Origin: Bacillota bacterium
GTDB taxonomy: Bacteria > Bacillota > SHA-98 > UBA4971
Length of the DNA: 32,257 bases
Assembly (NCBI GenBank): GCA_012516125.1
Contig: JAAYXB010000060.1
Location: forward strand, 1 to 32,257
Reading direction: 5' to 3'
The position numbers were made by a program, and so were the translations under genes. Positions 5,497 through 31,683 of the stretch are shown here, one piece after another (position 1 is the stretch's first letter; the number at the start of each line of letters is the position of its first letter). Below the pieces are notes generated by a model. It was given only the letters and a program-made list of their open reading frames with translations. It made no database searches and was not told the origin of the DNA.

Positions 5497-6027
5497 GCCG
5501 CGAGCTGATGGTTTGCGTAAAGCCGCCTCCATGGCGCTGAGCAAGTCGCGTTTGGGCGGTGGAGCGGCCATTGCCCGGCGCAAGATGCGTCGACAAGCGG
5601 CGACCGGCGCAAACGTGGCAAGCTAAACGAGTCAAGCATATCGGGCCACAAGGAGAGGAGGGGGTCGCCCTGAGGGCGGCTCCCTCATTCGTGTTCAAGG
5701 CCCGGCGTGGCGCGGTGGCACCGTGGGGCCGGGGCTGTGCCTTCCGAGTCGGATCAGGACCTCTAATGGGTCCAAGGGCGGCCGTATGAAGATGGGGGAT
5801 ATTTGGAGCAAATGGCAGGAGGGGAAGCAGTGGGCGTCAAATACTTAGGGAGTGACTGAGGGGGGCTGCGTTGTGGTCATGAGACGGCTGGGGTGGGGGC
5901 TCGATTGGGCTTTGCGGGCGGCGCGGCCTCGTAGGGGGTGGGCTGGGTGGAGCGCGTGAAGCACGCATCGGCTCTTGCGCGATGGGCGCTGTGCCTTTCG
6001 AGGTGGTGTCCCTACCAGGGAGATCGT
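5497..6027 (+). other. Intergenic region with a terminator-like hairpin
   Basis: About 530 GC-rich bases with no gene that I can support. It contains the hairpin at 5658-5686. The G-rich stretch 5860-5945 holds in-frame upstream start codons for the next gene, but none with well-spaced ribosome sites except possibly GTG 5947. Confidence 0.5.
5658..5686 (+). terminator. Strong hairpin, possible terminator after the PorV-like gene
   Basis: GAGGGGGTCGCCC (5658-5670) pairs over 13 positions with GGGCGGCTCCCTC (5674-5686), counting two G-U pairs, around a TGA loop. No proper T-run follows, so intrinsic termination is uncertain. It could also be a processing or attenuation structure. Confidence 0.45.
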
Positions 6028-9000: not shown

Positions 9001-10332
9001 CGCGGCCGGCAGGACCTCACGCAGTTCCGGCTGGGCGGGTCCTATACCGTGTGGGAGAACCTGACCGTGCGGGCGGAGCACGCCGTCCGCGCCACACGCC
9101 CCGTGGACATCACCGGTGAGGGCAGCGGCGGTGGGGATGCCGCGGAGGATGAGCTCCTGACTGTGACGACCGATTCCGCAGGCCTCACGTGGAATCTCGG
9201 GCCCCAGGTGGACCTCGACTACACGTTGGAACGCATGGACAGGGTCGCGCGCGAAGGGCTCGAGGCGCAGCGGACGACTTACTCCATCATGGCGCGGGAG
9301 AGCCTGTTCGCGACGAGACTCACCCTCGGTGCCGGTTACGAGAAGGTCATCTACGACGACAACGAGAAGCCCAGGAACTCTTACATCGCCCACAACGTCA
9401 AGGGCGACGTCACATATGCGCCTGTTCAGAGCCTTACCCTCAGGCTCTACTACCGGTTCCCGGTGCGCGTGATCACGGTAGACGGCACCGAGAAGGGGAG
9501 CCGCGACATAGGCGCCACGGTCTCCTGGGCCGACAAGGTGGGGCCTGCACGGATGAACGTGCAGCTCTCGCAGTACTCGAGGACGGACGTCCCGCAGGAC
9601 GTCACCCGGCTCCAGAGGCGCGGCACGGCGCGGGCGACGTTCGATGCGTTCCAGGTAGGCACGCTGAAGCTCACGCCGTCCGGCGGCGTAAGCTGGGACT
9701 ACCTCGAGCCCGTCCGGGGAGAGGTGCGCACCGTGCTCTCCGGGGATGCTGGCCTGCGCGGCGAGACCGCCGCATGGCGCACGGACCTGCGGCTGAGGCG
9801 GACGGGCACCACGTACCACGAGTCGGAGAAAGTCAACACGGACAGCGAGGTATCCACGACGGCGACATACACGGGCTTCGAGAGATTCACGCCCAGCGCC
9901 GAGGCGAGCTGGAAGACGTCGTCGCAGGTCCATCCGACGCTGGGCGAGAAGACGTCCGACTCTCTGGCGACCGCGGTGCGGCTGCGCTGGCTGGTGAGCC
10001 AGGGCGCCACTGATACCCTGAGCGGCTGGCGGAACCAGAGGCGTGGCGAGAAGGACGATCTCGTGACGTACGGTGTGGGCAACAGCTTTACCTACTCGCC
10101 CGGAGGGAAGCTTTCCACGACGGTGAGCGGGTCGCTGGAGCGCACCTCGGGCACGAAGGCCGGCGCGGACTACGACGAAACGAAGGCCAGGCTCGACCTG
10201 ACGGCGGACTGGCGCTTCAGCGACGTCTGGCGCGCCTCGCTCACCCTCGGCTACATCCGCGGCGTGAGCACAGCCATGACGGAGGGGTTCAACACCTACA
10301 CCGGGACGCTGAAGATCATCGCCAGCTTCTAA
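6028..10332 (+). CDS. Giant outer-membrane barrel protein with inserted beta-propeller
   Basis: A protein of about 1434 residues. The start is uncertain: GTG 6028 has AGGGAG five bases upstream, while the frame is open back to 5938. An Arg-rich N-terminus leads into an Ala-rich hydrophobic segment (about 41-70) ending in ASA, a long signal peptide. The N-terminal 590 residues are beta-rich. A central block (about 620-920) carries repeated blades such as TVWVGTDSGLA, DLYVGTPSGLM, DVYVATDSGV and LWLGGEDGLYEYD, the Reg_prop/two-component propeller pattern. The last 480 residues alternate polar and hydrophobic residues, with many Tyr, Arg and Thr, and end in KIIASF; a terminal Phe is typical of outer-membrane barrels. 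Role unknown; a surface receptor or transport pore with a sensing or binding propeller is a guess. No known family is recognised for the full length. Confidence 0.8.
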   Translation: MGEGSVTSATRAQDTSRTPGAAGTDRAGARARHVRSRAARAAVAAAAVAFISCIALLAAAGAWGGAAASAAEVAKGVDVSGEAVWSGTYAAGDPEGLKGMQGYAINTLIVSQTLRLTISGELPGGFSVSASLDNYSSGNLQLVRIDFSNETISGCFGDFAYATANPYVARRLTLRGVQVAAKLDDFTVGAILGRVKGIPASKTFKGASSSDTTVFRHDGPYAPTRERAVLVASIGGAESYRMSGTFDPDFMKVELRYDDGAPGARRTLLELLTNYDMAYLYRETEDDDGVIAAGDLREVDRGKYTVVTSTDGDHLVLQRESLDLLRDQVRDLIREYNTKNGLTGPDQKVYPFVVGSDSEKAFLEELCNDHSWVVAGLPESVTKVLDSPLENYATGRFYLLGHERIDLESVEIEVLVGGTYTEADAIPGLLYTVYYDQGVIEFTFPAGAPDAYEEIRVRYNYSITGNIYTLGISVAQGSERVYLNGELLKRDIDYTIDYEAGVLFILRDIGPQDTIKVEYEYFAGGLGVPVEYKRIFYGVSWAWQPTPDLKLAADIIRAQDQPTPLVGPERARTMPNTHTVAGVSADAKFGRLTVDADVAYSHEIFPYDDNSRKNTSNRINEAMFVTDDAGNEYMLFAHQNGLTSYRVADGKWRHYSPASGLAGWTVYDMAASAGSDSWFFATESGLTVLAARVGPGGEPPFDRVENWRRYYESDGLPSSNVLSVLVDDAAATVWVGTDSGLARASVGNLENWRVFDEGTNPEMISEVITDIAVSEVTGDLYVGTPSGLMSFDGATGRFTTEFSGAAVAEVAALSSPVGDGDVYVATDSGVRFRREPHGAWQVLAGTEGARWSAVRAAGGVLWLGGEDGLYEYDGSGAPARVDVTAGREITAVAGAGGVPGAEDAVWAGEGADEFYRLSLWSAPRPYASFTEYVQENTKISGKDEHRYADVPADEHTYTGFAGALGATFDLGAGKVYGSYERVEPTFLAIGARGRQDLTQFRLGGSYTVWENLTVRAEHAVRATRPVDITGEGSGGGDAAEDELLTVTTDSAGLTWNLGPQVDLDYTLERMDRVAREGLEAQRTTYSIMARESLFATRLTLGAGYEKVIYDDNEKPRNSYIAHNVKGDVTYAPVQSLTLRLYYRFPVRVITVDGTEKGSRDIGATVSWADKVGPARMNVQLSQYSRTDVPQDVTRLQRRGTARATFDAFQVGTLKLTPSGGVSWDYLEPVRGEVRTVLSGDAGLRGETAAWRTDLRLRRTGTTYHESEKVNTDSEVSTTATYTGFERFTPSAEASWKTSSQVHPTLGEKTSDSLATAVRLRWLVSQGATDTLSGWRNQRRGEKDDLVTYGVGNSFTYSPGGKLSTTVSGSLERTSGTKAGADYDETKARLDLTADWRFSDVWRASLTLGYIRGVSTAMTEGFNTYTGTLKIIASF

Positions 10333-10399
10333 GGGAGGCGCGCAAGTCTTTGTCTCCCTTCCAGAAGGTGGCAGGCTGCTAACGTAGCGGTCGGGGAGG

Positions 10400-10424
10400 G
10401 CGCCCCCGGCACCGGCGGGGGCGC
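10400..10424 (+). terminator. GC hairpin downstream of the giant barrel gene
   Basis: GCGCCCCCG (10400-10408) and CGGGGGCGC (10416-10424) form a perfect 9-bp stem around a 7-base loop, 68 bases after the stop codon. No T-run follows, so a terminator function is only possible. Confidence 0.4.
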
Positions 10425-10521
10425 TGCACCAGAATCCGGCGCGGGCAGGGACACTGCACCGGAATCCGGTGCCAGCGGGAGCACTCCACCAGAACCAGAC
10501 GCGAGCGGGAAGTGCTCCACC
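10424..10521 (+). repeat. 30-bp tandem repeat, about 3.2 copies
   Basis: Repeats begin at 10424, 10454, 10484 and 10515. Each starts with CTGCACC or CTCCACC, followed by AGAATCC/GGAATCC and a GCGGGCAGGGA-like tail. The period is a multiple of three, so a peptide repeat cannot be excluded, but no ribosome site or recognised product supports one. Confidence 0.75.
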
Positions 10522-10662
10522 TAAGCCCATCTTCCGCATTAGGAGCGCGGCCAAGTTGAGAAATGGCCTGCTAAAAGGCTACTTGCCGGAGCCGTCGAAC
10601 TGTCTGGCGGCACACGACCATTGCGCCCTTTAGCTGGGAAGACGTTTCTACTGCGGAAAACG

Positions 10663-19225: not shown

Positions 19226-20821
19226 ATGAAGAGGATAGCGGAGTCTGTGAAGGGAATCCTCGACGAGCCCGAGACGTTCTTCGAGCGCTTGAAATCCGGT
19301 GGGCGGCTTCACTTCCTGGCCGTCGCGACAGGCGCCTTCTTCTCGCTGGGCGTGGGGTTCGTCCTTGCTGAGGTGGCGTTCCCGTTCGCGAGGTCTATCG
19401 CTCTCCTTGGCGCCGTAGGCGTCGTGCTTGCCGTGGCTCTGTTCTTGGCGAACGCTTCCCTATGGTGGATCGCGTGCAAGGCGGTGGGCGGAAAGGCGGG
19501 GTGGGCCCATTTCGTGAACGCGTGGGGATATTCGCTGCTCCCGGTGGCGGCGGTCGCCGTCCCGCTCGCCATCGTGATGCTGGCGGTCGGGAACGGGTTC
19601 CTGCAAGTCCTCACCGCGCCGATAGCGGCGGTAGGCGGCGTGGTGCTTCTGCTTCTTGTGGTTGCAGCCCTCCTCACCCTGTCCCTCAGATACGCGGTGT
19701 TCGAGCGCGTCATGGGGCTGTCCTGGTGGCGGATCGCGGCCGCGGTCTTCATCTTCGGGGTGGTCATGAGCGTCCCGTGGGGGCTCTATTCGGGCTACGC
19801 CACGATCACCTATTCCACAAGCGACCTTGCGTTCTTCGAGCTAATGAAGCCGACCCTGTTCAGCACGTATCCCGGCCCGGGCGCGAAGCACACCTTCACC
19901 ATCCGAGAAGCGGACGTCCTCTTCGTGAGGACTCCATACATGCGCGCAAACCCACAGCGGGGCGACGTGGTGCTGTACGTCCCTGAAAGCGATCCTGACC
20001 TCGACCTCGATCTCGATCTCGGCAGCGGCTTTGACCTGGGGCTCAGTCTTCGCCGTGGCCTTGGTCATAGCCTGGATCGCGGCCTCGCGCGGATGGTGCC
20101 CCGCCTCACCAGGCTTGCCGGGCTGGCGGGGCTGGCGGTGCGGGGCGTGACGTCCGTCCTGGCGGCCGGGGGGCCTCGGTTTGACGCGAGGATGGGCCGG
20201 GTCGTGGCCTGCCCTGGAGAGACCGTGGCGCTCCGGGACGGCGTCGTATACGTTGACGGCGCCCGCGAAATCTTTTCGCCTGCTGTGGGCGCGGAGGCCG
20301 ACAGCTCCCGCACAAGCTCCAGCGCTAGCTTTGGCTCCAGCCCAAGGTCTGGCCTTGACTCGACTTCCGGGTCCGGTTTTGGCATCGGTGCTGGCTCCGG
20401 CTCTGACTCCGACTCCGACTCCGACTACGACCACGACTCCGACTTCGGTCCCGGTGCCAACTTCAGCTCTAGCAGCAACGCTGACTCCGGCTCCAGCTCC
20501 AGCTCCAGTTTCAGCTTGAACTCCGGCTTCAGCTCCAGCTTCCGCCTCAGCTCTGCCTCTGATTCCGGCACTGGCACTGGCTCTGGCTCTGGTTCTGGCT
20601 CTAGCGTCGCCGCCGTCGCAAGCGCCGGCTCCAGCAGCACCTCCCTCGAACCAACACTCCTCGGAGAGGACGAGTTCTTCGTGATAGGGGACAACCGGAG
20701 CGCCGACACGGGGACGGTCGTGAAGAAGGAGCAGATCCTGGGCAGGTACCCGCGGCTGAGGCTCGCGCTGCACAGGGCCAGCATTCCGACGATACTCCGG
20801 CTGGGGCATGACGGGAATTAG
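19226..20821 (+). CDS. YIP1-like membrane domain fused to a degenerate S26 signal-peptidase domain
   Basis: A 531-residue protein; ATG with GGAGCGAGG upstream. Residues 1-200 form a YIP1-type domain (GILDEPETFFERL motif, then about five membrane helices). The C-terminal half follows the signal peptidase I (S26) layout: PQRGDVVLY (243-251), GRVVACPGETVALRDGVVYV (324-343) and FFVIGDNRSADTG (484-496). By eye, the catalytic Ser of the usual SMxPT box aligns with Lys221 (KHTFTI), and the general-base Lys of KRVxxxPGD aligns with Gly324. Both catalytic residues thus seem absent. Two low-complexity insertions are present: DLDLDLDLG near 257-270 and a Ser/Gly/Asp tract of about 115 residues (355-470) between the S26 boxes. 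It may bind signal peptides or have another, non-proteolytic role; this is inference. Confidence 0.82.
   Translation: MKRIAESVKGILDEPETFFERLKSGGRLHFLAVATGAFFSLGVGFVLAEVAFPFARSIALLGAVGVVLAVALFLANASLWWIACKAVGGKAGWAHFVNAWGYSLLPVAAVAVPLAIVMLAVGNGFLQVLTAPIAAVGGVVLLLLVVAALLTLSLRYAVFERVMGLSWWRIAAAVFIFGVVMSVPWGLYSGYATITYSTSDLAFFELMKPTLFSTYPGPGAKHTFTIREADVLFVRTPYMRANPQRGDVVLYVPESDPDLDLDLDLGSGFDLGLSLRRGLGHSLDRGLARMVPRLTRLAGLAGLAVRGVTSVLAAGGPRFDARMGRVVACPGETVALRDGVVYVDGAREIFSPAVGAEADSSRTSSSASFGSSPRSGLDSTSGSGFGIGAGSGSDSDSDSDYDHDSDFGPGANFSSSSNADSGSSSSSSFSLNSGFSSSFRLSSASDSGTGTGSGSGSGSSVAAVASAGSSSTSLEPTLLGEDEFFVIGDNRSADTGTVVKKEQILGRYPRLRLALHRASIPTILRLGHDGN
20300..20630 (+). repeat. Low-complexity Ser/Gly/Asp-coding tract
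   Basis: CTCCGACTCCGACTCCGAC-like and AGCTCC/GGCTCT hexamers fill about 330 bases inside the S26 domain coding region. They encode runs such as SDSDSDSD, SSSSSS and GTGTGSGSGSGS. The reading frame stays open, so the insertion is tolerated. Confidence 0.8.
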
Positions 20822-21493
20822 AGCGGACGAGGCGACGGGATGGGTTCTGTCAGCGGAGGATCGGACAGGACGGGATGAGGGAGGCTGCCGCTGTGGGCCG
20901 GCATAGCGCTCGTCGCCGGGGGAGTGGCCGCAAGCGACAGGTAGTGGTTGGGACAGCCTGCACGCGCTACCGCAGTGTTCACGGCCGCTGCGGCCATGGT
21001 GCTGACCGGCACATCACTAAAGGTCCACGAATCGACCGTAGCCGCAAAGATGCCGCTCCCTCGCTGCGATACACATGCGGCGGGATCCTCTGGAGCTGAT
21101 GCCAGTATCGGAGTACCCTCTCGAATGCAGAGTCGAGGCACCAGTGGAGAGTCGCCTCGTTGTGCCTGTGCTCCCTTTCGAGTGTAAGGCGCGAACGCAG
21201 AACCGCACGGGTGACGAAAGTGCCACCCCTACTGTAGGGGTACAACTGCCTGCCGTCTGCTCGCCTGACGCCGTACGCTCTTGGTTGTTGCCCGGACAGA
21301 TAGAAGTTGCGCTTCATCCTTCTCCGAAGAACCCTCAACACGATCATTGCGCGTCCCTTGCACAGATGATGAGGAGCCCTATGCCAGCGCCGCGCGAATC
21401 GCGCTTGGCTCGATAGCCCCGGCTCTGGCGTGCAACACCGAGCTTGACGTGCTCAACACGCTCGTCACCCGGGTGATATTCGCGGTTCCTGCG
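20822..21493. other. Intergenic region with no recognised gene
   Basis: About 670 bases. Short frames on both strands have no ribosome sites or clear families. A perfect palindrome ACCCCTAC-T-GTAGGGGT occupies 21225-21241 and could be an operator or hairpin. Confidence 0.5.
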
Positions 21494-21523
21494 TTGCAAG
21501 CTATAGGACGGTGAGGGTATAAT
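21494..21523 (+). promoter_or_regulatory. Sigma70-type promoter for the toxin-antitoxin operon
   Basis: TTGCAA (21494-21499) and a perfect TATAAT (21518-21523) are separated by 18 bases. The antitoxin start is 59 bases downstream of the -10 box. Confidence 0.65.
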
Positions 21524-21581
21524 GGACATGGGGAAAAGCCAGCGGTATGGGGAAAAGCTAGCTGAGAGGAGGTCGCCGGCC

Positions 21582-21821
21582 ATGGGCAAAACCGTTAGAG
21601 CCCTCTTCGACGGTAGGGCATTGTGGCCTGAAACGTCAATTGACGTGAAGCCCGGGACCACGGTCACTGTCACGGTCAAACCTATTGACGACCGAGTCAA
21701 GTTCAAAGCCAGGGGAGCCTCGTTTATTGAGACTGCACGTAGTCTTAACCTTGATGGGCCTAGCGATTGGTCTCAGCGGCTTGAGGAATACCTGTACGGA
21801 GAAGGGGCAGATGGGAAGTAG
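21582..21821 (+). CDS. Antitoxin of a PIN-domain toxin-antitoxin module (AF2212/DUF104-like)
   Basis: A 79-residue protein. The ATG at 21582 is set by GAGAGGAGGT nine bases upstream. The N-terminal half has the beta-strand pattern of small AF2212-like antitoxins (VRALFDGRALWPETSIDVKP then GTTVTVTV). The C-terminal part (FIETARSLNLDGPSDWSQRL, then EEYLYG) resembles the segment that wraps around the toxin. It overlaps the toxin gene by 11 bases, so antitoxin and toxin are made from one transcript. It probably binds and inhibits the PIN nuclease and may repress the promoter. Confidence 0.8.
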   Translation: MGKTVRALFDGRALWPETSIDVKPGTTVTVTVKPIDDRVKFKARGASFIETARSLNLDGPSDWSQRLEEYLYGEGADGK

Positions 21822-22227
21822 GTATTTCTTGGATACTTCCTATGTGATTGCTCTCTCAGTTCCTAAGGACCGGCACCATCGCCGGGCCCTGGAGTTGGCG
21901 TCCCAGATAGAAGCGTCGAAGAACAGGCTAATCACTACGCGAGCCGTGGTGCTGGAGATCGGTAACGCCCTTGCCAAGAGAAGTCATCGCGAGGCCGCAG
22001 TCGCTCTCCTGGAGTCGCTGGCCAATGACCCCCTCATTACGATCGTCCCATTGTCGGAAAGGCTTTACCGTCGTGCTTTTGCTCTCTATCAGGAGCGGCC
22101 AGACAAGGAGTGGGGGCTAACCGACTGCTGCGCGTTCATTGTCATGAATGACATGGGCATACACGAAGCACTGACTGCCGACGATCATTTTCGTCAAGCG
22201 GGATTCCGCGCTCTCCTGTTGGAATGA
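21811..22227 (+). CDS. PIN-domain RNase toxin (VapC-like)
   Basis: A 138-residue PIN-domain protein. The acidic active-site residues are all present: Asp8 in FLDTSYVIAL, Glu49 in VVLEIGNAL, Asp105 in GLTDCCAF and Asp124/125 in TADDHF. PIN toxins of this kind cut structured RNA such as tRNA using a metal ion. The ATG 21811 lies inside the antitoxin gene (11-base overlap) after a GGAGAAGGGG site. Confidence 0.88.
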   Translation: MGSRYFLDTSYVIALSVPKDRHHRRALELASQIEASKNRLITTRAVVLEIGNALAKRSHREAAVALLESLANDPLITIVPLSERLYRRAFALYQERPDKEWGLTDCCAFIVMNDMGIHEALTADDHFRQAGFRALLLE

Positions 22228-22579: not shown

Positions 22580-23380
22580 CTACGATGATCTACTCAGAAT
22601 CGCCCTGGCGACCCCGTGGATCTCCTGGGCTGAGAACGCTGCGAAGTCCCTGATGAGGCGGCACGTGCGCTCGAGTTCTCTGCGCCATCCTTGCCACGTC
22701 AAGGATGTCCCCGGGTTATCCACAAGCTCGGCAAACAGGGCTGCGAGGCCGACATAAGTGAAGATGTCCTTGAGGTCTGCGGTCACAACACCGGGCAGGT
22801 TGATGAAATCCAGTATGTACCCGCGCAGGGCGAGATCACAGAGCGCGCCGCCGACTCCTGCAACGATGGTCACGAAGGCCACGTCCAGCCACAGACTCCT
22901 GCGTTTTCTCGCAGCGTAGTAGCGGAAACCCAGCACGAAACAGGGTAGCGCGATTGCCCACATCGCTCCCAGCGCGCCGGGACCCATGAAACCAATGCCG
23001 AATTCCCTGGCCAGCCACGATCCGTGCATGTTTCGCGCGTGGGCAAGGTGCAGCCAGCCCGGGATGATCGGGACTGACCCGCGATATGGAATGAACGCAC
23101 CGACCGCTGCCTTGATAAGCTGCTCCAGAGCAACCAGCAGCACGGCCAGTCCCAGAAGGTGCCGCCAGCGCGGCAACCATGTCGGTGTTCGGGCCAGCGC
23201 TGCCGCTGCCAGTGCGCAGCCGATCAGGTAGAACACTATGAACGGATAGCCAGCTACCATCAACTGGTGCGCCGTCCGCAGCTTCGCCCGCGACAGCTCG
23301 ATCAGCACGTAGACAACCCACTCCACGAGGAACAGCATCTTCAGCTTCGTCGGCTTGAGGAATGTCCACATCGCAAGCAT
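22580..23380 (-). CDS. LspA (signal peptidase II)-like membrane protein with N- and C-terminal extensions
   Basis: A 266-residue polytopic protein; ATG 23380 follows GAAAGGATGG. The central part matches signal peptidase II: ALEQLIKAAVGAFIP (84-98, where typical enzymes have LDQ), VPIIPGWLHLAHARNMHGSW (103-122, the RNxxxxF/W region) and GGALCDLALRGYILDFI (177-193), then TADLKDIFTYVGLA (200-213). Asp191 and Asp205 align with the catalytic aspartates. About 75 extra residues with two helices precede the core and about 45 hydrophilic residues follow it; standard LspA has about 160. It is downstream of an ABC-2 ATPase/permease pair on the same strand, 61 bases after the permease, so it may serve that system rather than general lipoprotein processing. 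Confidence 0.72.
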   Translation of the reverse strand: MLAMWTFLKPTKLKMLFLVEWVVYVLIELSRAKLRTAHQLMVAGYPFIVFYLIGCALAAAALARTPTWLPRWRHLLGLAVLLVALEQLIKAAVGAFIPYRGSVPIIPGWLHLAHARNMHGSWLAREFGIGFMGPGALGAMWAIALPCFVLGFRYYAARKRRSLWLDVAFVTIVAGVGGALCDLALRGYILDFINLPGVVTADLKDIFTYVGLAALFAELVDNPGTSLTWQGWRRELERTCRLIRDFAAFSAQEIHGVARAILSRSS

Positions 23381-23441
23381 AGAACCATCCTTTCGGGGCA
23401 GGCACTCGAGAAGCCCGCCGTATGTTCTTCTCCAGCGGCCT

Positions 23442-24527
23442 TCAGAAGCTGTAGCTTCCTCTCCGTCGTAATGCCCAGACCGCAACAATGAAGGCAACAG
23501 CCGTGCTTACCAGCAGAATCGCGAGGTTTCCCCACACCTTCGCGGTAGACGCTTCGCCAGCCAAGGATAGACTCAGAGTGTCCACGACATAGTATGTGGG
23601 GATAAGCCGCACAAGGGTCTGCAGGATAGGTGGCAGACCCCGAGTCACAAAGAGCCAGCTCGGCAGCAGCAAAACCACCAGCGGGATAGTGCTCCAGGTA
23701 TTCAACTGAAGCACATTCCTGAAGAAAGTGCCCAGTAGTAGCCCCACCGGCACGGTGAACAATGAACCCAGAAACAACGCGAGAAGAGTGATATCCCAGT
23801 TCCCCTTCCACCCGTTGTTGAGGCTCAGCACTACTCCTGTTATCGCCAGGCTGCATATCAGTCCTGTCAGGGCCTTGCCGACCACGATATCAGTCGGCCC
23901 TGCGGGTGACACCAGCAAGAACGACAGAGTACGTCTCTCCTTCTCTTCTACGAGCAACAGCGGTATTATCAGCATGCCGGTTGCCACCACAGAGAGCAGC
24001 ACTATCACGATCAAGACGAGATCCCGATAGTTGCGCACCTGAGTCTGGGGTTCTGCGGGAGCACCTATATCGACCCATGCGATTCGCGCAGGCGGAGGAG
24101 TCAGGCGCATTATCTGTTCTTGTACAAGGCTCTGGAAAGCGCGTCGCTTGACCTCGTCCTGCTCGTAGTTGATGTAAGCAGCAAGCTCAGGCTCCTTTCT
24201 TGCCTCCACAGAAGCATCGAAGCCGGACGGGATCGCAAGCCCTCCTGCTGCGCCATTCTCTCGCACGCTTTCGGCTAACTGGGAACCCGAGTCTACCTCG
24301 AGCATCCTCACATTCGGGACCTCTCGTAGCGCCGCCACAAGGCGGGAATGACTCGGGTCGTAGGCAACGATGGTCAGTTGCTGCAGGTCTGCAGAATGGG
24401 AGGGTAAGACCAGCTTGAGGAGGAGCGCAACTCCGACGGGCAATGCCAGAAAGGCAAGGAGAAACTGGTTCCTGATCGCGTCAGCCAGATCTTTGCGCAT
24501 TATCGCCAAAATCGCTCGTATGTTCAT
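23442..24527 (-). CDS. ABC-2 type transporter permease (ABC2_membrane_3 type)
   Basis: A 361-residue permease. It begins with a typical cytoplasmic segment (MNIRAILAIMRKDLADAIRN) and a first helix, has a large extracytoplasmic domain of about 150 residues (about 45-195), and then five helices. VEEKERRTLSFLLVSP (about 218-233) is the conserved ABC-2 coupling motif. The ATG overlaps the ATPase stop (ATGA). The architecture matches YhaP/NatB-like exporters. Confidence 0.88.
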   Translation of the reverse strand: MNIRAILAIMRKDLADAIRNQFLLAFLALPVGVALLLKLVLPSHSADLQQLTIVAYDPSHSRLVAALREVPNVRMLEVDSGSQLAESVRENGAAGGLAIPSGFDASVEARKEPELAAYINYEQDEVKRRAFQSLVQEQIMRLTPPPARIAWVDIGAPAEPQTQVRNYRDLVLIVIVLLSVVATGMLIIPLLLVEEKERRTLSFLLVSPAGPTDIVVGKALTGLICSLAITGVVLSLNNGWKGNWDITLLALFLGSLFTVPVGLLLGTFFRNVLQLNTWSTIPLVVLLLPSWLFVTRGLPPILQTLVRLIPTYYVVDTLSLSLAGEASTAKVWGNLAILLVSTAVAFIVAVWALRRRGSYSF

Positions 24528-25372
24528 TCTCGCACCCCTCGCCCGGTGAGCTTGATGAAGACGTCCTCCAGCGTGGCCTCCAGGGAATGTAGCGTAAGAA
24601 TCTCGCCGGATGCGACGAGTTCGCTCAACCGTTGTCCATCGGTCTGGTTGCCAATGGAAAGGCTCAGGACTCTTCCGTCCACGAGTTTTGCCTGCAGACG
24701 CCGTTGACCATGGGCGAGTTTGAGTTGTTCGGGACTGTCCAGCGCCACAATGCGCCCCTGGTTGAGGAAGGCCACCCTGTGACACAATTGATCGGCTTCC
24801 TCCATGTAGTGCGTAGTGAGAAAGACTGTTACGCCCTCACCGGCCATGCCTTTGACCAGGTGTCGAATCTCCTGGGCTATGTGAGGGTCCAGCCCTCTCG
24901 TGGGTTCGTCAAGGAACAACACCTTTGGACGATGAAGCCAGGCACGGGCAAGCAGCAGGCGCTGTTTCATGCCGCTGGAGTATGTCCTCACCAGGTCTTT
25001 GGCCCGCTCGCTCAGTCCAACCTGCTCGAGGACCTCGTCCACACGGGGTTTAGGTACCGAGTATAGTTGCGCGGCAAACGCCAGATTCTCGCGGCCCGAC
25101 ATACGCTCATACAGATTTTGGTGTTCAAACACCACGCCAATCTGAGATTTGAGACGTTTCTCTTCGCCTGGTATCCTCAGGCCCGCCACGCGGATGTCGC
25201 CCGCTGTGGGACGCAGTTGGCCGGTAAGCATGCGGATGGTGGTCGTCTTGCCTGCCCCGTTCGGTCCCAAAAACCCGAAAACCTCTCCCTCTCTTGCTGC
25301 GAAGGTGACGTCGTCCACAGCACATAACCTGTTGAAGCGGCGGGTCAGGTTTTCAACCTCAATAGCGTTCAT
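24524..25372 (-). CDS. ABC-2 transporter ATP-binding protein
   Basis: A 282-residue ATPase with Walker A GPNGAGKTTT, signature YSSGMKQRL, Walker B VLFLDEPTRGLD and switch His in TTHYMEEAD. The C-terminal domain ends in the family-typical LEATLEDVFIKLTGRGVRE. ATG 25372 is chosen because AAGGGAG lies about six bases upstream. It is the first gene of a three-gene minus-strand operon with the permease and the LspA-like protein. Substrate unknown. Confidence 0.9.
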   Translation of the reverse strand: MNAIEVENLTRRFNRLCAVDDVTFAAREGEVFGFLGPNGAGKTTTIRMLTGQLRPTAGDIRVAGLRIPGEEKRLKSQIGVVFEHQNLYERMSGRENLAFAAQLYSVPKPRVDEVLEQVGLSERAKDLVRTYSSGMKQRLLLARAWLHRPKVLFLDEPTRGLDPHIAQEIRHLVKGMAGEGVTVFLTTHYMEEADQLCHRVAFLNQGRIVALDSPEQLKLAHGQRRLQAKLVDGRVLSLSIGNQTDGQRLSELVASGEILTLHSLEATLEDVFIKLTGRGVRE

Positions 25373-26110
25373 TTCGCTCTCCCTTCCGTCATACCCGAAC
25401 ACTAGAAGTCCGCTCCGAAACCGCCGGTGCCGCGTCCATGGGACAACCGGTACGCCGCCTAGCTCCGGATTTGTGGCCTGAGCCTGCAGTCGCCAGAGTC
25501 GTGCGCAACTCTCGGAGCACGCTTCTAGGGGCCTTCTCCGTTGAGGACGACACGCACAGAGCGCGTTCACTGTCTACAAGAGTCCGGTAAGCATGACGCA
25601 CCCCCTCGTATGCCATGAGCAGCACCTGAAGAGGAGCGCCCGACGAAGCGGTGGTCACGGGGCTGTTACTCGGGACCACGCGCACCGTCACACATTCGAC
25701 GCCAGTGCCGGGGGTCCTTTCCTGTTTGCCTCACTCACTGAGTGAGGGTGTCGTTTGCTTACGGCCACGACCCCGATCGTTCGTCTGCCGAAAGGTGCTT
25801 CCCGCTCCGAATCTGACCAGGAGATTGTCAAGGCAGTGAAGGACCAGGCTGTACTTGGCCGCCGCAGGTGCCGGTACAATCACTGCTGTGGTTGTTCTCC
25901 GGAACTCTTCGGACTCCTCCGCCACCCTACGGCGAGGACTCGCCCTGCCAGAGAAGCTCGCCACGCCCGCCAAACCGGATGACGTTTCGTATCTAACAGG
26001 GTACTACTGAGCCTCCAAAGATGGCCAAAATGCCACTCGGGCAGGGCGCCGCAACCGGAGCGAGGAGGACAAGAGCCTCAGTTCCTGGCTTCAGCCGCAG
26101 GCAAGCTCAG
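25373..26110. other. Intergenic region, no recognised gene
   Basis: About 740 bases. Frames on both strands are short and lack start signals. An inverted repeat CCTCACTCA-C-TGAGTGAGG occupies 25729-25747. Together with the neighbouring exporter remnant, the stretch looks like decaying DNA. Confidence 0.5.
25729..25747. promoter_or_regulatory. 19-bp perfect inverted repeat
   Basis: CCTCACTCACTGAGTGAGG is a perfect 9-bp inverted repeat around one C. It may be an operator for a dimeric regulator. No obvious T-run follows, so it is not a standard terminator. Confidence 0.4.
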
Positions 26111-26575
26111 TTAGCAACGTGCGCTCGCGTACCGCACCGCCCTGCCGCCGTCCAGGCGGATTTCCACATCCGTCAAGCTCGTCAAGCTCGCAAGGTCCGC
26201 ATCGTGGGTGAGGATTATGCAGATCCTGCCGGAGAACAGCCTATGCACGACTTCCCTCAGCAGCGCGCGCATCTCCTCATCGAGGTGGGCCGGCCGTGGC
26301 TTCATCGAAAACGATGACATCAGCTTCTTGCGACAGCGCACGCAGAGTGGCCACGATCTGCCTCTGCCCACCGGAAAGCCGCCTGGCGCCTTCGCCCACC
26401 TGGGTGGCAGACCTTGAGGCAGCCGCTCAAGCAGCCTTGCAACAACCGGCGTCTCCTCCTCGGCCTTCGCCAGACTCAAGAAGCAGGCAATCGTCTTTCT
26501 TTGCGCGGTCACGTTCGTCACAGTACAGGTGTTTCCTGCTGGAGGTATGCATAGACTTCACTGTATCCCTTACTA
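26111..26575 (-). pseudogene. Frameshifted remnant of an ABC exporter ATPase domain
   Basis: Pieces of one ABC-B-type nucleotide-binding domain occur in order on the minus strand but in different frames: EVYAYLQQETPVL (near 26530-26570, Q-loop region), NVTAQR...LLERLPQGL (26521 down to about 26410), [18 protein letters not shown] plus [11 protein letters not shown] (about 26400-26300, signature and Walker B) and [14 protein letters not shown]...IILTHDADL (to 26111, H-loop). A GGCC duplication near 26290 causes one shift, a missing base near 26405 another, and at least one more lies near 26525. Walker A and the membrane domain are missing. It is the remains of an exporter, next to the peptide cluster. 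Confidence 0.85.
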
Positions 26576-26633
26576 GTGTTTGCTCACCCCGCCGCCATGT
26601 CTACCTCCTCCCGTACAGACGCCGCTGAGCGAT

Positions 26634-26783
26634 ATGGGAATTGGTGTTCCCATTACCGGCGGCGTCACACCAGCACCACCACCAGCACCACCTTCAGATT
26701 CGGGGTATGTCTTGGCCGATCTCCGCGAACATTTTGGAGGTCTCCGGCAAATATATGGGTGGGAAGTCGACACTCGTCCATAG
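26634..26783 (+). CDS. Possible small peptide upstream of the regulator
   Basis: A 49-residue frame that starts MGIGVPITGGVTP, has a Pro/Ala stretch and ends in a protein-like tail (YVLADLREHFGGLRQIYGWE). It stops 38 bases before the LuxR-type regulator. The ribosome site is weak, so translation is doubtful. An inverted repeat ATGGGAA-N6-TTCCCAT covers its first bases (26634-26653) and could be an operator instead. No family recognised. Confidence 0.25.
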   Translation: MGIGVPITGGVTPAPPPAPPSDSGYVLADLREHFGGLRQIYGWEVDTRP

Positions 26784-26821
26784 ACCCGGGCTCCAAGCCT
26801 TTCCGGAGGGAGGAAGCCACC

Positions 26822-27166
26822 ATGTCGTCAAGTTTTGGTGACCGTCGTCCTGACCTTCCTGCATCGGCTCAACAGCCGGTGGCGCGTGCGCCCGGGCGTG
26901 TCGAGAGGGGCAACGACATGGTTGACTGGGTCGACCTCGTTGCACGGTTGACCGCTGGTGAGCTGCGAGTGCTTGCGGCTCTCATCGGCGACCCCGCACG
27001 CACAACCTTTGAAGCTGCTCGCTTATTGTGCGTGAGCAAATCCTGCATCAGATTCCACCTGGGGAACATCTATCGTAAAACGGGTGTCCGCAACAAAGCA
27101 TGTCTCCTGCTCTTGTGTAAAGAACTTGGATTCGACCGAGTAGCCGAGAGGTTTCTATCAGACTAG
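26822..27166 (+). CDS. LuxR-family helix-turn-helix regulator (HTH only)
   Basis: A 114-residue protein; the ATG follows GGAGGGAGGAAG. Residues 42-98 form a LuxR C-terminal helix-turn-helix: LTAGELRVLAALIGDPARTT then FEAARLLCVSKSCIRFHLGN and IYRKTGV. The usual N-terminal receiver or sensor domain is replaced by about 35 polar residues, so it has no obvious input domain. It lies upstream of the radical SAM gene on the same strand, separated by about 470 bases, and is the likely regulator of the peptide cluster. Confidence 0.82.
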   Translation: MSSSFGDRRPDLPASAQQPVARAPGRVERGNDMVDWVDLVARLTAGELRVLAALIGDPARTTFEAARLLCVSKSCIRFHLGNIYRKTGVRNKACLLLLCKELGFDRVAERFLSD

Positions 27167-27640
27167 GCTGACCGCAGACAGGGCGGCCGATCCCGCGTCG
27201 CGGACAGTCATCTTTTGGAGCATATGTATAAGCAGCTGGCGGCCGATGCTGCCGCATTCAGCTGAATAAGCAGAGAAATGCGGGGAAACCCACATCAGTT
27301 GCCACCGGGCATGCGGCCGGGCGATACAGGGAAGGTGTCACAGCGCTTGCTAACGTGAGCGGGGAGTCACTGCCAGCGAGCTTGGTGTTGTCAGACCCGA
27401 CGGCGTTGGGGAGGCTATGGGCGGGCCGGTCATTGCAGCGGCGCCCTCCCAAATCGGTTACAAGGCGGGCTCATGCGTCGGTGCCGGCACCCATGCGACC
27501 GTGACGGTTCCGGACCTAGACAAGGCTGCCCCACCGAACATGGGGAAGATCCGGTGTCGAAGATCTTGGGAGAGTCTCTTTCCCCGAGCGTGGCTTAGGG
27601 TGGCATAGAGAGAAAATAGCGTAATAAGGAGGGTCGCTTG
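27167..27640 (+). other. Leader region of the radical SAM operon
   Basis: About 470 bases. One open frame (27417-27608, 63 residues, starting MGGPVIAAAPSQIGYKAG) ends 32 bases before the maturase start. Its GGGGAGG lies only two bases before ATG, poor spacing, so I do not call it a gene. The AAGGAGGG for the maturase is at 27627-27634. Promoter elements were not identified with confidence. Confidence 0.4.
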
Positions 27641-28984
27641 GTGAAGGCATCCGCTTACAATCATTTCATACGAGCAGGGAACAGGACACTCGCGTACAAC
27701 GCGGTCTCCAACGGTCTCGCCCTCATCGATGATGAGGTGCTGAAGGCTCTTCGGTCGCCTGAGAGCATAGATCCTCTGATCCTATCCCGTTTGCAGGGCG
27801 AATCCGCGACCCTGTTACGGGAGCTAAAACGCGGGCGCTTCGTGATCGAGTCCGACTTCGACGAAGTCGAATACCTCAGACTGCTGTACAATCGGGCGAA
27901 GTACGACGTCGTTGCGGCGGGTCTTACGATAGCTCCGACCCTCGACTGCAACTTTAACTGTCCGTACTGCTATGAGGAGCAGCGGTCATCTCGGATGACG
28001 GATGAGGTCAAACAGCATCTCTGCCGATATGTGGCTCAGATCGTCAAGGTGGCCAGGTCGTTTCAGGTAACGTGGTACGGTGGTGAGCCTCTTCTTTGCC
28101 CCGATGTTATCGAGGAACTCAGCAAGGAGTTCTTGAAAGCCTGTGAGGAGAACCATTGCGCGTACCACGCAAGCATCGTGACCAACGGGTCGCTACTGAC
28201 GCGCGAGACTGCCCTGGCGCTGAAGGAGCACAAGATCGAGACGGCGCAGATAACGCTTGACGGCCCCCGCGAGGTCCATGATAGCCGACGCTGCTATCGC
28301 GACGGACGGGGATCCTTCGATACAATCGTCGCGAACATAGAGGCGACACGAGATGTGTTGCGCATCGCTATCAGGGTCAACGTGGACAAGACCAACATGG
28401 ACCATATCGTAGAACTGTTCACTTATCTGCGGGACAGGGGAATCCTCCAGGAAGGCCAGACCGCAAACGCTTACCTTGGCCACGTGCATGCGCCAACAGC
28501 AGCCTGCAAGGACATCGAGAGCAACTGTCTCGATGCCGAGGGGTTTTCCCGGTTTGAACTTGACGTAATGAAGCAGTTGAGTGAGCGCGGCTTCCATCTG
28601 AGCCGTTATCCAGATCTCCGAATGGGCTCTTGCGGCGCGGTCAGGCCATACGTGTTCGTGGTGGATCCTGAAGGAAACCTGTATAAGTGCTGGCACTCCA
28701 TCGGCATCAGCGACGAGGTGGTCGGGCACATCTCGAGACCGGGAGAGATGACCGCAGCCCACCTGAAGTGGTTGAGCTTCGATCCGTTCAAGTTCCCTGA
28801 GTGCCTGAGCTGCAAGATCTTTCCCATCTGTATGGCCGGATGTCCTGACACGGCAATGAAAGGCGGAATTGCAACCGGGGAGAGTTGCGAGAGATGGCGC
28901 TACTACCTCGATGACATGCTACGGCTCCACGCGGAGAACGTTCGGCGGGCAAAAGAGTCCGGAAAGGTGGAAGCCGCAGGATGA
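27641..28984 (+). CDS. Radical SAM/SPASM peptide maturase
   Basis: A 447-residue enzyme. The N-terminal part (NAVSNGLALIDDEVLKAL) resembles the leader-facing region of SPASM peptide maturases. The [4Fe-4S]-SAM motif is CNFNCPYC (C103, C107, C110), followed by TWYGGEPLL. The SPASM region holds seven cysteines: C331, C350 (DPEGNLYKC, a GX4C pattern), then CX2CX5CX3C (C388, C391, C397, C401) and C416, the full set for two auxiliary clusters. Such enzymes make thioether or other radical cross-links in ribosomal peptides. GTG 27641 is favoured (AAGGAGG eight bases ahead); TTG 27638 is possible. ABC export genes and a nine-Cys peptide follow; this context makes the peptide its likely substrate. Confidence 0.9.
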   Translation: MKASAYNHFIRAGNRTLAYNAVSNGLALIDDEVLKALRSPESIDPLILSRLQGESATLLRELKRGRFVIESDFDEVEYLRLLYNRAKYDVVAAGLTIAPTLDCNFNCPYCYEEQRSSRMTDEVKQHLCRYVAQIVKVARSFQVTWYGGEPLLCPDVIEELSKEFLKACEENHCAYHASIVTNGSLLTRETALALKEHKIETAQITLDGPREVHDSRRCYRDGRGSFDTIVANIEATRDVLRIAIRVNVDKTNMDHIVELFTYLRDRGILQEGQTANAYLGHVHAPTAACKDIESNCLDAEGFSRFELDVMKQLSERGFHLSRYPDLRMGSCGAVRPYVFVVDPEGNLYKCWHSIGISDEVVGHISRPGEMTAAHLKWLSFDPFKFPECLSCKIFPICMAGCPDTAMKGGIATGESCERWRYYLDDMLRLHAENVRRAKESGKVEAAG

Positions 28985-29009
28985 CCTGACACTGGGTCCA
29001 AGGAGAATG

Positions 29010-29981
29010 ATGTCGGTGATACGTATCCATAATCTCACGAAGGCTTATCCAAAAGCGAGGGATGGCCGGGGCAGCCCTGTCACTGCCGTCGACCGGGTTT
29101 GCCTGACCATCGACAGAGGCGAAGTCTTCGCCTTGCTCGGGCCGAACGGGGCTGGGAAGACAACGCTCGTGAAGATCCTCTCCACCCTCATTGTGCCGAC
29201 ATGCGGCATGGCGACAGTAAACGGGTACGATATCCTGACACAATCCAGCAGGGTCAGGGCATCGATCGGGTTCAGCCCAGGAGGCGAGAGGTCGTTCTAC
29301 TTCCGGCTCACGGGCCGCCAGAACCTCGAGTTCTTTGGAGCCCTGCAGGGGCTTAGGCCGCCCCTTCTCCACCGGCGAATCTCCGAGGTCCTCGACCGGC
29401 TTGGCCTCGGGGAAGAGGCCGATAAGAGGTTTATGAAGTATTCGTCCGGAATGCGGAGAAAGCTCGGGATTGCCCGGGCTCTTCTCACCGACCCGCCCGT
29501 CTTGCTGCTAGACGAACCCACCGCTTCGGTGGACCCGGCCTCCGCAAGGCACATCCGCGAGCATATCAGGGAACTGAAAGCCCAGGGGCGCACGATTCTT
29601 CTCACCACTCACAACATGGACGAGGCCGAACGGATTTCAGACAGGATCGGCATACTCAATAAAGGCCGTCTCATCGCTGTGGACACCCCGGCCAACCTGA
29701 GGGGCGTTCTGCACCAATGCCGGTTGCGGCTGGTCGTTCGAAACTGGGGGAAAGATCCTGCCAGGTTCATTGGAGGCCTCAGGTCAATAAGCGGGGTTAC
29801 TGCCGTTTACGAAGGAAACCCATCGCTCGAAGTCATCATGACGCAGAAGGAATTCGTAACAGGCGAAGTCGTGCGGCTCATAGTGGAGCACGGGGTCGAG
29901 GTTGAGTCCATCACAACGTGCGAGCCTTCCCTCGAAGACATCTTTCTGACGCTCACAGGGGGCGAAACGAGCCGTGTATAA
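29010..29981 (+). CDS. ABC transporter ATP-binding protein of the peptide cluster
   Basis: A 323-residue ABC-2 type ATPase with Walker A GPNGAGKTT, signature YSSGMRRKL, Walker B VLLLDEPTASVDP and switch His in TTHNMDEAE. AAGGAG is at 29000-29005; ATG 29010 is preferred over ATG 29007, whose spacing is one base. It starts 25 bases after the radical SAM gene and its stop overlaps the permease start by eight bases, so the three genes form one operon. It probably drives export of the mature peptide. Confidence 0.9.
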   Translation: MSVIRIHNLTKAYPKARDGRGSPVTAVDRVCLTIDRGEVFALLGPNGAGKTTLVKILSTLIVPTCGMATVNGYDILTQSSRVRASIGFSPGGERSFYFRLTGRQNLEFFGALQGLRPPLLHRRISEVLDRLGLGEEADKRFMKYSSGMRRKLGIARALLTDPPVLLLDEPTASVDPASARHIREHIRELKAQGRTILLTTHNMDEAERISDRIGILNKGRLIAVDTPANLRGVLHQCRLRLVVRNWGKDPARFIGGLRSISGVTAVYEGNPSLEVIMTQKEFVTGEVVRLIVEHGVEVESITTCEPSLEDIFLTLTGGETSRV

Positions 29982-30771
29982 GGCATACGTCTTCGTAAAG
30001 CGTGGCTTTGTCAGCATGCTGAGCTACCGAATGGCCTTCGTGCTCACACTCCTTGGCACGTTTGTCGGCGCAGCGCAGTTTTACTTCATGGCGAAGTTCC
30101 TCGGGGAAGGGCACGAGTTCCCTCTTCTCGCACCCTACGGCGGTAACCTCATGGGATACCTCATAATCGGCACGACGTTCATGAGCTTCGTGGGGGTGTC
30201 CTTGAACTCGTTCCAGGGCGCGATTCGCGGAGAACAGCAGATGGGCACGCTGGAGTTCCTCCTCATGTCGGATACCCCGCTGCACCAGATTCTAATCTAC
30301 TCAGCGCTCTGGAACTTCTTGTACGCGTGCCTGAGCACGTCGGTCATCTTCCTCGTGTTCGTCCTCGGCATGGACATCAACGTGAACCTCGGCGCCGCGC
30401 TATTCATATTGCTTCTCTCTGTCGTGTGCATGTCCGGGTTTGGGCTGATGTCCGCCGGCATCATCATGGTTACGAAGCAGGGAGACCCAATCACCTGGGC
30501 CTTCGGCACGCTTTCCGGTCTCCTGAGCGGGGCCATGTTCCCGATTGAGCTTCTGCCCCCGCTCCTGCGTACCATCGCCGCGGTGCTTCCCCCTACTCAT
30601 GCGCTCATTGCACTGCGAAAGACCATCATGGTCCATGCCGGGCTTGGAGAGGTGAGAAGCCAGGTCCTGGCCCTGCTCGCCCTCACCGCACTGACCCTTC
30701 CGATCGGGCTGGTGGTGTTTCGATGGGGGTTCAACAGGGCCAGGACTGATGGTAGCCTTGCTGAGTATTAA
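29974..30771 (+). CDS. ABC-2 type permease of the peptide cluster
   Basis: A 265-residue permease with six predicted helices. The N-terminus MYKAYVFVKRGFVSMLSYRM, the cytoplasmic loop GEQQMGTLEFLLMSDTPLHQ and the late GAMFPIELLPPLLRTIAAVL are typical of ABC-2 permeases (ABC2_membrane). The start GTG lies inside the end of the ATPase gene. It probably forms the exporter with that ATPase. The Cys-rich peptide gene follows 64 bases downstream. Confidence 0.9.
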   Translation: MYKAYVFVKRGFVSMLSYRMAFVLTLLGTFVGAAQFYFMAKFLGEGHEFPLLAPYGGNLMGYLIIGTTFMSFVGVSLNSFQGAIRGEQQMGTLEFLLMSDTPLHQILIYSALWNFLYACLSTSVIFLVFVLGMDINVNLGAALFILLLSVVCMSGFGLMSAGIIMVTKQGDPITWAFGTLSGLLSGAMFPIELLPPLLRTIAAVLPPTHALIALRKTIMVHAGLGEVRSQVLALLALTALTLPIGLVVFRWGFNRARTDGSLAEY

Positions 30772-30835
30772 CCCGATACCCATGCAGTCACACCACGCCC
30801 GGGTTGGCGGCACAAGGTCTACGAGGAGGTGACAG

Positions 30836-30994
30836 ATGATGGAATGGATAGTGAAGCCAAGCAAAGCCGGCACAGAGGTAGAGCCAGATTGTCAGTTGTG
30901 GTACGTATGCCATTGCTTCTGCTTGATAGGATGGCGACCGCTTTGCTTCCTGTGCACGTGCGAAGCTGGCTCGTGCTATTGCTACCCTGGCTAG
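30836..30994 (+). CDS. Nine-cysteine small peptide, candidate RiPP precursor
   Basis: A 52-residue peptide, easily missed because of its length. AGGAGG (30824-30829) sits six bases before ATG 30836 and nine before ATG 30839, an ideal ribosome site. The first 18 residues (MMEWIVKPSKAGTEVEPD) have no Cys and look like a leader. The remaining 34 contain nine Cys at 19, 25, 27, 29, 37, 40, 42, 47 and 49, with aromatic residues between them (WYVCHCFC, LCFLCTC, SCYCYPG). This is the layout of Cys-rich precursors of radical SAM/SPASM maturases; from memory the IVKP leader recalls clostridial Clo7bot/CLI_3235-type peptides, which needs checking. It follows the maturase and exporter genes on the same strand and ends before a possible immunity gene. 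Thioether or disulfide cross-linking is inferred. Confidence 0.82.
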   Translation: MMEWIVKPSKAGTEVEPDCQLWYVCHCFCLIGWRPLCFLCTCEAGSCYCYPG

Positions 30995-31055
30995 AGCCTG
31001 AGATGGCGGTGTAATTCGCAGGGTGGCTGGGAGCAGGCATGGATGTGAGACATGG

Positions 31056-31096
31056 CCGGGAGGAAGCGGAGGCGGTAGGCCGGAGCCTCCTCCCGG
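31056..31096 (+). terminator. Inverted repeat downstream of the Cys-rich peptide gene
   Basis: CCGGGAGGA (31056-31064) and TCCTCCCGG (31088-31096) form a perfect 9-bp stem around a 23-base, itself GC-rich, loop. It lies 62 bases after the peptide stop. With no T-run, it may stabilise or attenuate the transcript rather than end it. Confidence 0.45.
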
Positions 31097-31302
31097 CGAC
31101 CGGGCGTTGACGCTACTATATTGGCGAGGGATCGCGGCGCATCCGGAACTACTGCCAGACTATGCTGGATGCCTGAGGCGCCGACAGCGAGCACCGGCTA
31201 CCGTGAGGTGACCCAGACTCTGGGACAGCAGTGGCGAGTTGTGACCGGGTCTCTTCGCCTTGTGTCACCGAGACTATTTGCGCGCTTCCAGGAGGATGGT
31301 GG

Positions 31303-31683
31303 ATGAGTCTAACTCGTTATGATTTGTTTGCGCTTGCGTCGATTCTGACACTCTATCTAATAGGTCAGAGCCTTGCGCGCCGTCTTCCCAGTCGGTTGGC
31401 GATACATTTCGGTCTGAACTTAAAGCCAGACTCCTTTGTCAGCAGACAGGTCGGGCTGGGTCTTATGCTGGGCGTCGGACTGTGGACCTGGTTTATAGCA
31501 CTGGTGACGGCAAGACCTTTTGCATCTCTTCGGGCCTTCCTGGCGGTCTGCTTGACGCTGACGCTTTTCGGCACGATAGTGCTGTGGAACTTGGGCCTAC
31601 GGAAACCCGGGGCTCTGCTCTCCATAACGTGCGCCGTAATCTTCGTCGCACGGATAGTCTACCTTTTCGTGCGTGGTTGCTGA
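31303..31683 (+). CDS. DUF1648/SdpI-like small membrane protein, possible immunity protein
   Basis: A 126-residue protein with four predicted helices. The ATG is chosen for AGGAGG seven bases upstream. After the first helix it has LPSRLAIHFGLNLKPDSF (28-45), the DUF1648 pattern LPxxxxxHFxxxxxPD found in the N-terminal part of SdpI-type immunity and signalling proteins. The next helices (GLGLMLGVGLWTWFIALV, then two more) complete a short bundle. It is the last gene after the Cys-rich peptide, a usual place for self-protection genes. The immunity role is inferred from family and position. Confidence 0.72.
   Translation: MSLTRYDLFALASILTLYLIGQSLARRLPSRLAIHFGLNLKPDSFVSRQVGLGLMLGVGLWTWFIALVTARPFASLRAFLAVCLTLTLFGTIVLWNLGLRKPGALLSITCAVIFVARIVYLFVRGC

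Follow-up and report, generated by a model that had tools for sequence, protein, structure and literature searches.

The window analysed here, a 32,257-nucleotide stretch of a Bacillota bacterium (contig JAAYXB010000060.1 of assembly GCA_012516125.1), contains a small gene cluster whose product is very probably a cross-linked, cysteine-rich peptide. A preliminary description of this DNA had listed a LuxR-type regulator, a radical SAM/SPASM enzyme, an ABC ATPase and permease, a 52-residue peptide and a DUF1648-like membrane protein, all of which were found at about the same positions on the plus strand. The features of the locus are as follows.

26822 to 27166, plus strand: LuxR/GerE-type DNA-binding regulator of 114 aa, probably acting locally (GerE 20.8 bits, below cut-off)
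27638 to 28984, plus strand: radical SAM/SPASM peptide maturase with an N-terminal RRE-like domain (TIGR04334, Cys motifs, AlphaFold2 model)
29007 to 29981, plus strand: ABC transporter ATPase, DrrA-like (TIGR01188 280.7 bits, PF00005)
29974 to 30771, plus strand: ABC-2 transporter permease (PF01061 52.4 bits)
30824 to 30829, plus strand: AGGAGG ribosome-binding site of the precursor (sequence)
30836 to 30994, plus strand: 52-aa candidate precursor peptide with nine Cys (held-out leader profile; kept in the related genome G001)
30839 to 30859, plus strand: leader motif MEWIVKP (M-x-aromatic-[I/L/V]-x-x-P), a putative RRE-binding element (common to related precursors)
31303 to 31683, plus strand: small membrane protein with a DUF1648-like segment, candidate immunity protein (PF07853 28.3 bits, cut-off 28.7)

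The probable start of the maturase is the GTG at 27641, and the ATPase and permease genes overlap by 8 bases. The maturase had been credited with all its cluster-binding cysteines, and the full set is indeed present: the radical SAM motif CxxxCxxC is formed by C104, C108 and C111, and the SPASM pattern reads C332-x13-G-x4-C351...C389-x2-C392-x5-C398-x3-C402...C417. The three radical SAM and seven SPASM cysteines are invariant in ten aligned homologues, and the gene is under purifying selection. A search of the enzyme against known families, which the preliminary description had proposed, gave TIGR04334 as the best named model, with 345.6 bits against a cut-off of 600, together with lower scores for TIGR04463 (317 bits, cut-off 525) and PapB (149 bits, cut-off 340). 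The same profile search found no sactisynthase family above its cut-off. In the AlphaFold2 model (pLDDT 85.7, pTM 0.84), the N-terminal part consists of predicted strands plus three helices, which fits an RRE. Among PDB entries CteB (5why/5wgg) matches the model best, aligning over the full length with an E value of ~1e-19, a TM score of 0.68-0.72 over 454-472 columns, and 18-19% identity in the structural alignment. The motifs and the model thus predict a ranthipeptide-type architecture, consisting of an RRE, a radical SAM domain and a SPASM domain with two auxiliary clusters. In a tree of 34 homologues, in which the deep forks are weak, the maturase of the window and that of G004, another genome of the genus, form a pair (94/89), and a pair of Clo7bot maturases (loci L087 and L110) separates from them at 100/100.

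The precursor gene starts with two successive ATG codons, so that the peptide has 51 residues if counted from the second (30839), and its AGGAGG lies six bases upstream of the first. The cysteines are at positions 19, 25, 27, 29, 37, 40, 42, 47 and 49, which reproduces the spacing of 5-1-1-7-2-1-4-1 reported earlier and places all nine within the last 34 residues. The core is rich in Trp, Tyr and Phe beside Cys and has almost no Asp or Glu near the cysteines. Two short open reading frames in the window reach a density of nine Cys in 34 residues, a value not attained in 40 dinucleotide shuffles; the second is likeliest an antisense GC-rich frame at 7691-7894. Because this second frame is equally dense, cysteine density by itself is weak evidence, and the case for the precursor is therefore carried by its leader, its ribosome-binding site and the co-occurrence of such peptides with maturases. 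Profile searches of NCBIfam and Pfam with the 52-residue peptide gave no match, and a protein search of its own genome returned only the peptide itself and a chance match containing a stop. In G001 (contig JASEJE010000032), the peptide, the transporter and the DUF1648 gene are kept in the same order; this contig begins inside the maturase, and a third genome, G002, has part of the locus only. The G001 peptide differs by G12V alone, in the leader part, and its core is identical. This single nonsynonymous change, with no synonymous change over 52 codons, means that no dN/dS can be obtained for the peptide. Judged by its sequence, the 52-residue peptide is a genuine candidate for a RiPP precursor, and the earlier claim of a new core sequence holds: the core with this spacing appears to be new and lies at a SPASM-maturase RiPP locus.

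To score the leader, we used a position profile trained on peptides outside the genus only, and applied it to every ATG, GTG or TTG start of the 30-110 residue open reading frames in the window. The start of the window peptide ranked first of 963 with 18.1 bits, and the next scored 7.1 bits. Small frames that carry the motif M-x-[W/Y/F]-[I/L/V]-x-x-P, usually Cys-rich ones, adjoin homologous maturases in G004, in several lineages of Bacillota and on a Thermus plasmid. Leaders of the MEWIVKP type are common to the Clo7bot peptides (MKFIKKP and MKYIVKP), G004, six further loci (L012, L078, L086, L091, L140 and L142) and the Thermus plasmid. In G004, whose maturase is 42% identical to the window enzyme, two different Cys-rich peptides beginning MNWIVAP and MNWIMTP lie just downstream of it. 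Neighbours of more distant maturases begin MKFLVEP (L012), MEYLVHP (L078), MKYLVNP (L086) and MHWIKKP (L091), and at L087 several Clo7bot peptides in a row start with MKYIVKP or a close variant; the motif is also present in bona fide annotated Clo7bot peptides. On the Thermus plasmid, MRWILKP directly follows the maturase homologue, in a frame that has a single Cys and sits among transposases. Purine-rich sites comparable to AGGAGG precede the related precursors.

With the motif fixed beforehand and a slightly looser regular expression, 14 further maturase neighbourhoods from the same phylum were then searched. An adjacent peptide with the leader and at least three Cys was present in five of the 14 (L133, L134, L140, L142 and L143), and L140 has four such peptides (e.g. 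MNWVVSPSSTVTPNDAGCPWLCYTCSDC...), the closest in form to that of the window. At L135 and L136, Cys-rich neighbours have a related leader minus the proline or the aromatic residue. No peptide of the leader-motif type was found in the maturase neighbourhoods of L138, L139 and L089, of which L138 encodes the nearest maturase outside the genus, and the pairing of leader and maturase is therefore not universal. Within the genus, the profile also finds MEWISEP and MEWVTSP in G001 (L026 1409 and 1589, the same as L071 15409 and 15589), and a MIWVVEP candidate close to the transporter of both G004 and G001 (L023 2202, L070 5785; dN/dS 0.29 over 40 codons). An initial, less strict DNA pattern matched roughly once per genome in the phylum, for the most part as noise, and the pattern combined with a ribosome-binding site still yields chance matches, including three in the control orientation within the genus. 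Since chance matches persist, the DNA pattern of the leader proves nothing when taken alone.

Taken by locus, these results bear out the expectation of the preliminary description that related genomes keep a Cys-rich peptide beside a homologous maturase, here one with the same leader type; that description had missed the leader shared by the window peptide and the Clo7bot precursor family. The core Cys patterns of the relatives are so divergent that only the leader aligns, and the comparison consequently gives no sign that the window core is modified. The leader motif is the chief finding here.

The reading that we favour, with a probability of about 0.7, is leader-guided, RRE-bound radical thioether cross-linking by the SPASM enzyme, followed by ABC export or protection of the producer, with the leader protease encoded elsewhere. 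The 51- or 52-residue peptide would be the substrate of the maturase. By analogy with CteB, to whose RRE the leader binds in the form of a beta strand (PMC8326336), the MEWIVKP leader would dock in the same way on the N-terminal winged-helix RRE-like domain. The enzyme, with its SAM cluster and two SPASM auxiliary clusters, would then link several core cysteines to nearby residues through radical thioether bonds. These would be of the ranthipeptide type (thioether to a beta or gamma carbon) or the sactipeptide type (to an alpha carbon). SPASM enzymes make both classes (PMC8326336). The ABC ATPase and permease may act in export of the product or in protecting the producer, with possible further immunity from the DUF1648 protein.

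A different radical modification by the maturase, such as a C-C cyclophane at Trp or Tyr, epimerisation or another reaction, with the cysteines paired as disulfides or binding metal, is unlikely. The abundance of Trp, Tyr and Phe beside Cys would suit such chemistry, and the maturase fold is also matched by TigE, SuiB and ChlB, SPASM enzymes of non-thioether or other type. However, CteB is the closest by sequence and fold, the nearest families act on Cys-rich peptides, and it is Cys rather than Trp that is common to nearly all related precursors. The CteA/CteB pair (SCIFF, thermocellin) shares the full-length fold of RRE-like domain, radical SAM barrel and SPASM domain and a Cys-rich substrate, but has a low structural-alignment identity and another precursor; membership of SCIFF was dropped, since the maturase scores only 85.2 bits against the TIGR03974 cut-off of 425. 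PapA/PapB (the ranthipeptide freyrasin) likewise combines a SPASM maturase with several core cysteines, whereas the window core has no CX3D/E repeats. The substrate pattern of PapB is CX3D (PMC9413430), and the scarcity of Asp and Glu near the window cysteines counts against the favoured reading; without the CX3D/E of PapA the cross-link acceptors of the window core cannot be named. CefA/CefB and TIGR04463 (Cys-every-fifth) have a homologous maturase, but CefA, as observed beside a real TIGR04463 member, is a long repeat peptide and the window precursor has 52 residues. Membership of TIGR04463 was dropped as well, on the sub-cut-off score and a precursor that has no five-residue Cys repeat. 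A literature search on FlmE, OhkG and CefB found no relevant paper.

The locus might instead be an ordinary member of Clo7bot (precursor TIGR04333, maturase CtpM TIGR04334; Paraclostridium bifermentans plasmid NZ_CP079738), for which a literature search found no paper mentioning the name and no report of a product. Both share the M-x-aromatic-I-x-x-P leader of annotated Clo7bot peptides, a short Cys-rich precursor, a homologous SPASM maturase (36% identity) and nearby ABC transporters, and TIGR04334 is the best-scoring named family. However, a real member, the L087 maturase, scores 775.3 bits with that model as a positive control, well above the cut-off that the window enzyme misses. The window peptide had no match to TIGR04333 (cut-off 31 bits) at E<=1, whereas the L087 peptides score 40-52 bits, and a search of 41 relatives' genomes with this model returned no match, none in the genus. 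In addition, Clo7bot loci contain an array of seven or more precursors and the window has a single one, near the end of the operon, with nine Cys and an aromatic core; its leader is not followed by a G-[YFW]-C junction. The sub-cut-off maturase, the branch outside the Clo7bot clade and the miss of the precursor model together indicate a new variant rather than a Clo7bot member, and we regard ordinary membership as improbable. By its sequences, the locus is best described as diverging from the rest of the Clo7bot-like precursor/maturase group, with a core that is new and rich in aromatic residues.

The preliminary description had also called the locus complete for biosynthesis, export and immunity. 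The RiPP locus with its SPASM maturase stands, but completeness is less well supported: no leader protease is encoded in the window cluster. The export part is weakened too, because the transporter is a DrrAB-like ABC-2 pair with no peptidase domain, and the sole nearby exporter of the ABC_membrane type is a decayed, frameshifted C-terminal remnant (26111-26521, minus strand) of an exporter whose intact form occurs in the G001 cluster. Gene order suggests export by the ABC pair. Proteases lie beside several related clusters (L023 5082-5816 and 11472-12986; L078 5402-6844; L087 7191-7826), and these Rce1-like, S41 and weak peptidase-MA matches are candidates for leader removal there. DUF1648 is linked to immunity in SdpI-like proteins; by this analogy, and from its retention at a second G001 site (L071 12475-13011) together with the regulator but no maturase, peptide or copy of this ABC pair, the DUF1648-like protein is a possible immunity protein. 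Its dN/dS against G001 is 0.14, and that of the ATPase is 0.16; the transporter genes, like the maturase gene, are under purifying selection.

The regulator narrowly misses the GerE cut-off of 23.5 bits (its G004 paralogue scores 32.6), and copies 88-100% identical lie beside RiPP genes in G001, G002 and G004; none was found in the other genera searched. At the DNA level, the regulator is 90-92% and the transporter 91-95% identical in G001 (at two places, for the transporter) and G004. The permease is 96-97% identical in both genomes. The genes between regulator and transporter differ among G001, G004 and the window. The retention of the outer genes while those between them differ indicates, across these three genomes, a stable shell within which the maturase/core part turns over. 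That the peptide frame is a chance or decaying relic beside a real, otherwise employed maturase is very improbable, because the flux of loci in the genus, the stripped G001 site and the exporter remnant are outweighed by the leader score, the ideal ribosome-binding site, conservation in G001 and the parallel peptides at homologous maturase loci.

Several other observations were made in the window and its relatives. The whole 4961-bp contig L025 (G002:C53) is 100% identical to window 23215-28175 and ends inside the maturase; as G002 is listed as another species, this reflects either a recent transfer or a misbinned contig. A second RiPP cluster in G001 (L026, G001:C25, 519-8629) has an ABC permease and ATPase, two peptides (2960-3145, ...GWICWAGCIGGCAAGCLICIT..., and 3417-3602, ...GWLCAIICGAGCAAGCLAACY...), two radical SAM/SPASM enzymes and an ABC exporter. 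Its second peptide scores 34.4 bits with the huazacin family (cut-off 35), and its layout resembles that of two-component thuricin CD. Elsewhere in the window, positions 19226-20821 (plus) encode a 531-aa protein whose Yip1 domain and S26 signal peptidase part are split by a long Ser/Gly/Asp-rich low-complexity stretch, which is shorter in the G001 homologue (L070 1479-2906). The segment with a PIN-domain gene at window 21322-22043 shares 99.0% identity with G004, between flanks of about 85-97%, and may by this comparison be a recent exchange. A 1464-codon frame at 5938-10332 (plus) has no Pfam match and is overlapped by a long antisense frame (6436-10554, minus).

Beyond the favoured thioether reading, we tentatively consider a leader code, at somewhat less than even odds: one maturase/RRE lineage would recognise M-x-[W/Y/F]-[I/L/V]-x-x-P and accept very different Cys-rich cores, and precursors would be exchanged freely behind the regulator/ABC shell within the genus and across phyla (Bacillota, Thermus). 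If so, the orphan MEWISEP and MEWVTSP precursors of G001 would be served in trans, and the aromatic 5-1-1-7-2-1-4-1 core topology would be a new cross-linked scaffold. If the leader is the recognition element, precursors missed by standard models could be found through the seven-residue motif combined with a ribosome-binding site and a maturase neighbourhood, and a single promiscuous maturase could serve to cross-link Cys-rich cores of varied kinds. Turnover of such loci can be seen in the genus, where maturase and core are replaced but the regulator and transporter keep DNA identities of about 90-95%.
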